Below, piece by piece: positions 13,841 through 27,080 of a stretch of 36,115 bases of DNA. A model generated the notes under the pieces. It searched no databases. It saw only the letters and a program-made list of their open reading frames with translations, and was not told where the DNA came from. Within the stretch, counting starts at the first letter, position 1. Every line of letters starts with the position of its first letter. This DNA is from Chloroflexia bacterium (GTDB taxonomy: Bacteria; Chloroflexota; Chloroflexia; Thermomicrobiales; CFX8): the NCBI GenBank assembly GCA_030431755.1, contig JAUIIK010000043.1, positions 1-36,115 on the forward strand, in the 5' to 3' direction. The position numbers and the translations under genes are program-made.

Positions 13841-14026
13841 GTGACGACAGACCCGGTTGGCAACGTCCAGGCCATCGAAAAACTCATCCCAAAGAACGGC
13901 CAGGTCCAACAGGCGGTCCAGATGCACGCCATCAAACAGTCGATGGAAGCCTCCGAGGCGAGCCTGCTCCACCTCATCCAGTCCGTGCGCCCCGGCGTCG
14001 GGCAGAACGTCAACGTCAAGGCCTAA
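13841..14026 (+). CDS. Small YjfB-like (putative motility protein family) protein
   Basis: A protein of about 61 residues ending 'VRPGVGQNVNVKA'. The pattern of a short amphipathic segment ('QQAVQMHAIKQSMEASEASLLHLIQ') followed by a Gly-Asn-Val terminal motif resembles YjfB-family small proteins, for which a role in motility has been proposed but not established. I chose GTG at 13841 with GGCGG 5 bases upstream. GTG 13817 or TTG 13769 would add a short hydrophobic N-terminus but have poorer SD sites. No flagellar or chemotaxis genes are in the window. It is immediately followed by repeat copy A. Confidence 0.5.
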   Translation: MTTDPVGNVQAIEKLIPKNGQVQQAVQMHAIKQSMEASEASLLHLIQSVRPGVGQNVNVKA

Positions 14027-14036
14027 CAAACCCCTT

Positions 14037-14367
14037 CATGCATCAAGATAAAGTGTTCGTCAGCGGCGCGACCGAAATCGGTCGGCATGCAGCGCCTCGC
14101 AGCAGACACCACAGCAACAACCGTGGCATCCCGACGCAGGCGCGATCTTGTCGCGAGTGTGTCACATGTCAGCGCAGCGAAACGCTGGCAACAACGCCGT
14201 CGTGTCGGGGCAGGCTGCCTGCGGTGCCCTGCCGTCGCGTTCGAAGATCCCTCGTGCCTCGGGATGCCAGGTCCGCTGCTGGATCGCTTTAGGCGAGGAC
14301 CGGTTGATATCGCATCACAGAGCAAGCGGAATCGATGCTCGACCTCTGGCACTTAGCTTGATGCATG
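14037..14367. repeat. Non-coding dispersed repeat, copy A (MITE-like)
   Basis: A 331-base element with imperfect terminal inverted repeats: CATGCATCAAGATAAAGTG on the left (14037-14055) and, read on the minus strand, CATGCATCAAGCTAAGTG on the right (14367-14350). From about 14078 to 14367 it aligns end to end with 26768-27055. Inside is a 146-bp module bounded by TGGCATCCCGA (14124-14134) and TCGGGATGCCA (14259-14269). Short reading frames across it are not conserved between copies. It fills most of the 458-base gap 14027-14484, in which I see no gene. Confidence 0.8.
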
Positions 14368-14484
14368 CACTCAAAGCCTGACCAACCCCCACCAGCTAAC
14401 CTCTCACGCTCTTCGGACTCCGGCGTCGGCCGCGCTCGGGTATAGTCGCCGGTGCGTTGAACCACCGCTTGAGAGGAACACGCG

Positions 14485-26419: not shown

Positions 26420-26530
26420 GTAGGGGCGTGGACCCAGAGGGTGCCCCTCACGCCCGGTATCCACAGCCGGCGAACGTATGCGGATTCCGAGCGCTGGCGT
26501 GAGGGGCACCCTCTGGGTCCACGCCCCTAC
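26420..26530. repeat. Perfect 35-bp inverted repeat with 41-base loop
   Basis: The left arm (26420-26454) begins GTAGGGGCGTGGACCCAGAG and the right arm (26496-26530) is its exact reverse complement, ending CCACGCCCCTAC. The loop is 26455-26495. Transcribed, it would give a very stable hairpin. Its GTAGGGG/CCCCTAC ends match those of the shorter hairpin repeats elsewhere in the window. It lies 129 bases after the response regulator stop. The same peptide appears in short frames on both strands purely because of the palindrome, so no protein is indicated. Confidence 0.9.
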
Positions 26531-26570: not shown

Positions 26571-27080
26571 GTAAGGGTGGAGTTCATCTCCACCCTTCAT
26601 GCACCAAGTGAGGCGGTGGTGATCGACGGAACCATCAAACGCCATCTACAAACAGGTACAGAATCGCTTTGGGGAAACCATCTACCCACGCATTATGGAG
26701 ACGTGCCGCTGTCGTGCCCGTCCGAACTGCGCCGAGTCAAGCCGTTCCTTCGGCGGGTTTCCGCAATCGTTCGGCACGCTGCTCCACGCAGCGGACTCAA
26801 CAGCAACAACCGTGGCGTCCCGACGCAGGAAGGATCTCGCAACGAGCGTGCCACCTGTCGGCGAGACAACGTGCTGGCAACAATGCCGTAGCGCCGGCGT
26901 ACAACGGCCTCGGAGCGAGAGCGTGGCGTTCGAAGATCCCGCGTGCCTCGGGATGCCAACGGCGGTGCAGGATGTTCCGAACGAACGCTGGCCGGTGTAG
27001 TACTACGGAGCATCCGGGCTCAATGCGCTGCCTCTGGCGCTTATCGCGATGCATGAAAGGTGAGACACACTCCACCCTAC
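26571..27080. repeat. MITE-like element, copy B, with about 34-bp terminal inverted repeats
   Basis: A 510-base non-coding element. The left end (26571-26605) contains a perfect 10-bp hairpin (26573-26582 with 26588-26597, loop TTCAT) followed by TTCATGCACC. The right end, read from 27080 down to 27048, gives the same order, GTAGGGTGGAGT..TCTCACC..TTCATGCATC. From 26768 to 27055 it aligns with copy A (14078-14367), including the 146-bp module bounded by TGGCGTCCCGA (26813-26823) and TCGGGATGCCA (26948-26958). Copy B carries an extra segment of about 150 bases near its left end. No transposase is encoded; the interval 26292-27133 has no supportable gene. Confidence 0.78.

Follow-up and report, generated by a model that had tools for sequence, protein, structure and literature searches.

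Bacterial MITEs are short, non-coding, multi-copy and intergenic elements with terminal inverted repeats (TIRs) and a target duplication usually of 2–10 bp; an autonomous partner with the same TIRs is usual, although not required. Several other described systems bear on the locus reported here. REP palindromes of the GTAG type occur together with RAYT genes bracketed by REP pairs, and those of the CGTC type form dimers and "apparently lack a dedicated transposase" (Di Nocera et al. 2013, PMC3733652). In the same survey, REPs are found mainly downstream of genes, and Chloroflexota are absent from the CGTC list (PMC3733652). REP palindromes are also the targets of IS elements such as ISPpu9, a full IS with its own transposase (PMC8450116). 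Finally, the IS1202 group, with duplications of 16–28 bp, TGT...ACA ends and TIRs of 24–26 bp, is the only well-described IS group that we found with duplications of such length (PMC10132070).

The window, that is, the whole stretch of 36,115 nucleotides analyzed here (contig JAUIIK010000043.1 of a Chloroflexia bacterium, assembly GCA_030431755.1), contains two copies of an element that is likewise short, non-coding, multi-copy and intergenic, with TIRs and a target duplication, and that differs from bacterial MITEs by the 20–21 bp length of this duplication, the absence of a known partner IS, insertion at REP hairpins and a conserved REP pair that is carried along. The GTAG-type REPs of this genome, palindromes composed of GTAG and GGGTGGAGTTCATCTCCACCC, are landing sites of the element and not the mobile unit, and ISPpu9 differs from the element in enzyme type and ends as well (PMC8450116). 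We favor, with a probability of roughly 0.8, the joint explanation of a MITE-like transposon that inserts through a staggered cut, prefers REP hairpins and carries a CGTC-like REP pair as cargo.

Two window copies of a multi-copy element

The features of the two copies are the following.

14035..14369, plus strand: element copy A, with TT before the first CATG and CA after the last; aligns over its full length with about 20 others, at 86% to the consensus
14037..14050, plus strand: left TIR of copy A, CATGCATCAAGATA; 14/14 inverted match between consensus ends
14354..14367, minus strand: right TIR of copy A, TAGCTTGATGCATG; copy alignment and consensus
14015..14034, unstranded: left target duplication of copy A, GTCAAGGCCTAACAAACCCC; 16/20 direct match with 14370–14389, in the family-wide 20–21 bp register
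14370..14389, unstranded: right target duplication of copy A, CTCAAAGCCTGACCAACCCC; flank comparison
14124..14150, plus strand: left CGTC-like REP core of copy A, TGGCATCCCGACGCAGGCGCGATCTTG; most conserved block, standing alone in relatives
14243..14269, minus strand: right CGTC-like REP core of copy A, head-to-head with the left one, outer edges 146 bases apart
26596..27057, plus strand: element copy B; 76% to consensus over positions 10–331, both termini found
26575..26595, unstranded: GTAG-type REP palindrome GGGTGGAGTTCATCTCCACCC at the left edge of copy B
27058..27077, unstranded: right flank of copy B, AGGTGAGACACACTCCACCC, a REP remnant or duplicated target; 12/20 direct match
26813..26839, plus strand: left CGTC-like REP core of copy B; core search
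26932..26958, minus strand: right CGTC-like REP core of copy B; core search

The end-to-end alignment of the two copies described in the first-pass annotation was recovered by BLAST, window positions 26761–27055 matching positions 36–331 of the copy A query at 71% identity (E = 3.4e-34). The inverted termini that this annotation had assigned to copy A, CATGCATCAAG.../...CTTGATGCATG, are present as described; its account needs correction for copy B, which has recognizable termini too (CATGCACCAAG at 26598 and CGCGATGCATG ending at 27055). Its length exceeds that of copy A by about 127 bp, owing to extra bases (26609–26735) that separate the left terminal motif of copy B from the aligned body.

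The family extends well beyond these two copies. In the organism's own genome, a 5.15 Mb draft of 272 contigs that is 97% complete, 48 BLAST matches to copy A were found at 67–89% identity, many of which span most of the copy. Furthermore, the terminal motif gave 98 matches in this genome and its reversed control 3; for the core motif, the corresponding counts were 88 and 0. Counting copies from the motif and BLAST searches and from fetched stretches suggests about 80–90 recognizable copies, a figure that is an estimate and not a curated count; additional or lone matches to the terminal motif correspond to decayed copies or to chance.

The consensus, whose construction had been proposed as a check, is 331 bp long, from CATGCATCAAG to CTTGATGCATG, and is bounded by a perfect 14-bp TIR. 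Once minus-strand matches had been turned, the copies aligned end to end as CATGCATCAAGtTAaGgCG ... CTTGATGCATG, preceded by TT and followed by AA; these flanking bases are common to most copies, giving outer ends TTCATG...CATGAA and an element of about 335 bp. An internal 38-bp inverted repeat (84%) occupies consensus positions 76–113 and 208–245. The copies diverge from the consensus by 12–28% and are old, so that many duplications are blurred. As the first-pass annotation had stated, no reading frame is conserved (open in at most 4 of the 21 aligned copies), and a coding gene was rejected on this ground. One further element (C94:5998-6250) has the same TIRs with a different interior devoid of the core, which indicates that the mobile unit is delimited by its TIRs, the core being probable cargo.

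A target duplication of 20–21 bp

For 41 two-ended copies, we determined how well the two flanks agree as direct repeats of each length between 10 and 30. The identity between flanks of the same copy clearly exceeded that between flanks of different copies at just two lengths, 20 and 21 bp (0.440 and 0.447 versus 0.371 and 0.359), with a slight excess at 22 bp; over lengths 18–23, none of 50,000 permutations reached the observed sum (p = 2e-5), and an earlier comparison of 20 copies agreed with this. Since REP targets are palindromic, a direct duplication is proven by non-palindromic targets only, and clean examples in unique sequence are GGGCGAAGACGCTTyGAGGC (C213), yCTCGCkTAAGATCrCCCC (C111) and GTCAATCCGACGArGGyG (C54). 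At the C125 copy, the duplication TGGCGCAGCCCACGTATCCC matches at 20/20 positions. Flanking target duplications, which the first-pass annotation had proposed to look for, thus exist and are unusually long.

Because direct flank repeats appear at 20–21 bp only, both window stretches are copies of what is very probably a transposed, non-autonomous, MITE-like element. Shared TIRs, a target duplication of constant length and the lack of coding capacity make the element structurally a MITE without a known partner, and the many copies with common ends and no coding frame agree with the earlier proposal of a MITE-like spread as DNA.

The length of the duplication is what brings to mind a MITE of an IS1202-group (TnsB-like DDE) insertion sequence. 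While the duplication is indeed longer than 15 bp, as in this group, the element terminates in TT(C)...(G)AA instead of 5'-TGT...ACA-3', the TIRs differ from those of 24–26 bp in the family, and no preference for particular sites was found among the group's long-duplication members (PMC10132070), in contrast to the element studied here. Moreover, the two rve-domain genes of the genome lack the element termini, and with no link to the terminal motif they were rejected as partners. We consider this origin unlikely.

Insertion at GTAG-type REPs and in intergenic sites

Many insertions exactly adjoin the tag of a GTAG-type REP palindrome. Read outward, 22 of 82 flanks carry this GTAG tag at offset 21–24, against no more than one flank at almost any other offset. 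GTAG followed by GGGTGGAGTTCATCTCCACCC is the usual target, and such REPs also occur solitarily, without the element; one of them, the 29-bp palindrome GCAGGGGTGGAGTTCATCTCCACCCCTAC at 2150–2178 of the window, is an unoccupied site of the element's target kind. Next to copy B, at 26420–26530, lies a head-to-head GTAG REP pair with long arms (GTAGGGGCGTGGACCCAGAGGGTGCCCCTCACGCC...), and similar pairs with a common outer sequence (GGTTTTCTGCCATCGAT...CTGAATC) are found beside or inside other copies (L007, L012, L125 and L139).

Among the 15 copies with enough flank, 10 sit between convergent genes and 5 between tandem genes, with none between divergent genes or inside a gene, according to a simple GC3-based ORF call. 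As REPs are located mainly downstream of genes, this choice of site could follow from the choice of REPs.

A RAYT-like gene (C174:26517-26774) has GTAG REP pairs on both sides, so the host does possess a REP/RAYT system; a Y1 (RAYT-like) transposase gene between two head-to-head GTAG REP pairs (GTAGGGATGgGGCTCGTCCCCATCC) was noted at L114:1350-2080. The element could then be the middle of a composite REPIN/BIME-like unit, in which two GTAG REPs flank it and a RAYT, an HUH tyrosine transposase, mobilizes REP, element and REP together as single strands. The bracketed RAYT and the many GTAG-REP-flanked copies, some of them head-to-head, speak for such a unit. However, GTAG REPs do not bound all copies: several (L001, L028, L048 and L089) have no REP at either side and yet show 19–21 bp direct duplications of unique sequence. 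In addition, the conserved ends of the element are TTCATGCATC and not GTAG, and target duplication is not known from HUH transposases. Mobilization by a RAYT appears quite improbable to us. Conversely, REP-sited copies with inverted, head-to-head REPs at their flanks in place of a direct duplication form a sizeable minority (e.g., L004, L008, L049 and L056) and count against the staggered-cut explanation.

A conserved core resembling CGTC-type REP dimers

The 146-base module noted in the first-pass annotation is exact in both copies (14124–14269 in copy A and 26813–26958 in copy B), and its bounding 11-bp inverted repeat TGGCATCCCGA matches at 11/11 positions in copy A and 10/11 in copy B, with one change in the left arm. 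Module and repeat are real; their position is internal, and they represent a head-to-head pair of CGTC-like REPs instead of a transposon end. The pair looks like cargo of the TIR element.

In 60 genomes of the same order, only core-motif matches and no full element were detected, the core occurring there as stand-alone head-to-head pairs TGTCATCCCGACGCAGGAGGGATC...GATCCCTCCTGCGTCGGGATGACA. Such stand-alone CGTC-like pairs were seen at L032, L036, L037, L038 and L042, and paired stem changes (ATCCC/GGGAT versus ATTCC/GGAAT) were observed among those of the relatives. The tag is TGGC in the pairs of this genome and TGTC in the relatives. The core shares with CGTC-type REP dimers the head-to-head order of small palindromes and a stem starting with AT, as well as, in relatives, stand-alone pairs with the TGTC tag; it differs by the TGGC tag, an uninterrupted stem of 5 bp versus 8–9, a fixed spacing of about 118 bp and the location of most pairs within a TIR element (PMC3733652). 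The core thus resembles CGTC REP dimers, a membership that the TGGC tag and the short uninterrupted stem leave insecure.

Pairwise identity reaches 0.91 and 0.85 in the two cores versus 0.65–0.68 in the arms and middle. When changes were counted on the terminal branches of a tree built from the arms, core sites had 0.63 each and arm sites 2.5, a rate of evolution about fourfold lower in the core than elsewhere in the element, and several decayed copies keep little beyond the core. Selection is the simplest reading of this conservation, in which search bias and gene conversion may also have a part.

An immobile intergenic family selected as structured RNA or cruciforms (ERIC-like, or acting in transcription end or mRNA stability) would fit the conserved core, the sites mostly behind converging genes and a folding that is strong for the composition (z = -3.8), but it is very improbable, given that copy-specific 20–21 bp direct repeats and sharp common ends require insertion events, that the covariation term is close to zero and that no Rfam family matches above its gathering score (best sub-threshold hit BTH_s1, 14.6 bits versus 74).

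Search for the mobilizing enzyme

Searches for the partner IS with CATGCATC-type termini that the first-pass annotation had supposed were negative in the own genome, in relatives of the same class and in a set of about 85,000 species genomes. No ORF bracketed by the element TIRs was present at the terminal-motif sites examined in the own genome, and the terminal pattern was absent from the 60 other genomes of the order. The 157 class genomes gave 5 matches, near chance, and no transposase with these termini; a viral collection gave matches on 3 viral contigs, also near chance; and a plasmid collection gave none. Across the 85,000 species genomes, neither the exact arm-plus-core pattern nor the exact terminal pattern matched outside the own genome. 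The 272-contig draft assembly may lack a multi-copy autonomous IS.

Several candidates in the genome were considered. For a MITE of IS1182, no IS1182 transposase match was found in the genome. An IS4-like IS (C27:7662-8195 and C188:249-785) does sit at GTAG REPs, but with CACCTGTTCCAAC as its end it is not the partner; an IS4-like IS with ends CACCTGTTCCAACTAATTG was also seen at GTAG REPs (L139:1196-2569 and L063:1-1100). As a casposon test, the one Cas1-family gene (a 601-aa open frame on contig C65) was considered, and no terminal motif was found on this contig.

Proposed mechanism and implications

A transposase supplied in trans would recognize the TTCATGCATCAAG ends of the non-autonomous element of about 335 bp, and a staggered cut of 20–21 bp at insertion would leave the direct target duplication. 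The constant long duplication, the sharp ends and the interior variants mobilized in trans point to a DDE-like enzyme, acting by either cut-and-paste or replicative transposition. The enzyme would prefer the stem-loop of GTAG-type REPs, a preference that would guide the element to intergenic sites, usually behind converging genes. The duplicated segment often starts directly beside the GTAG tag, as expected of cuts made at both bases of the REP hairpin, and its fit to the stem-loop points to the hairpin, or to a protein bound there, as what sets the cut positions. Alternatively, an enzyme with a fixed 20–21 bp stagger may merely prefer REPs, and the non-REP targets favor this possibility. With each insertion, the staggered-cut element would spread the head-to-head CGTC-like REP pair as cargo, and the pair would be retained by selection or gene conversion after the remainder has drifted.

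More speculatively, and at odds we regard as rather low, a transposase of an undescribed type might recognize REP stem-loops, perhaps as cruciforms, and cut both hairpin bases to give the 20–21 bp duplication, its elements spreading CGTC REPs, which are without a known transposase, by using GTAG REPs as safe landing sites.

The 20–21 bp duplication at a REP hairpin, a rare signature, can guide a search for the responsible enzyme, and a CGTC-like REP pair traveling inside a TIR element offers a concrete test case for the reported absence of a dedicated transposase. Furthermore, with a core that persists while the rest of the element decays, a function for these REP pairs becomes testable.
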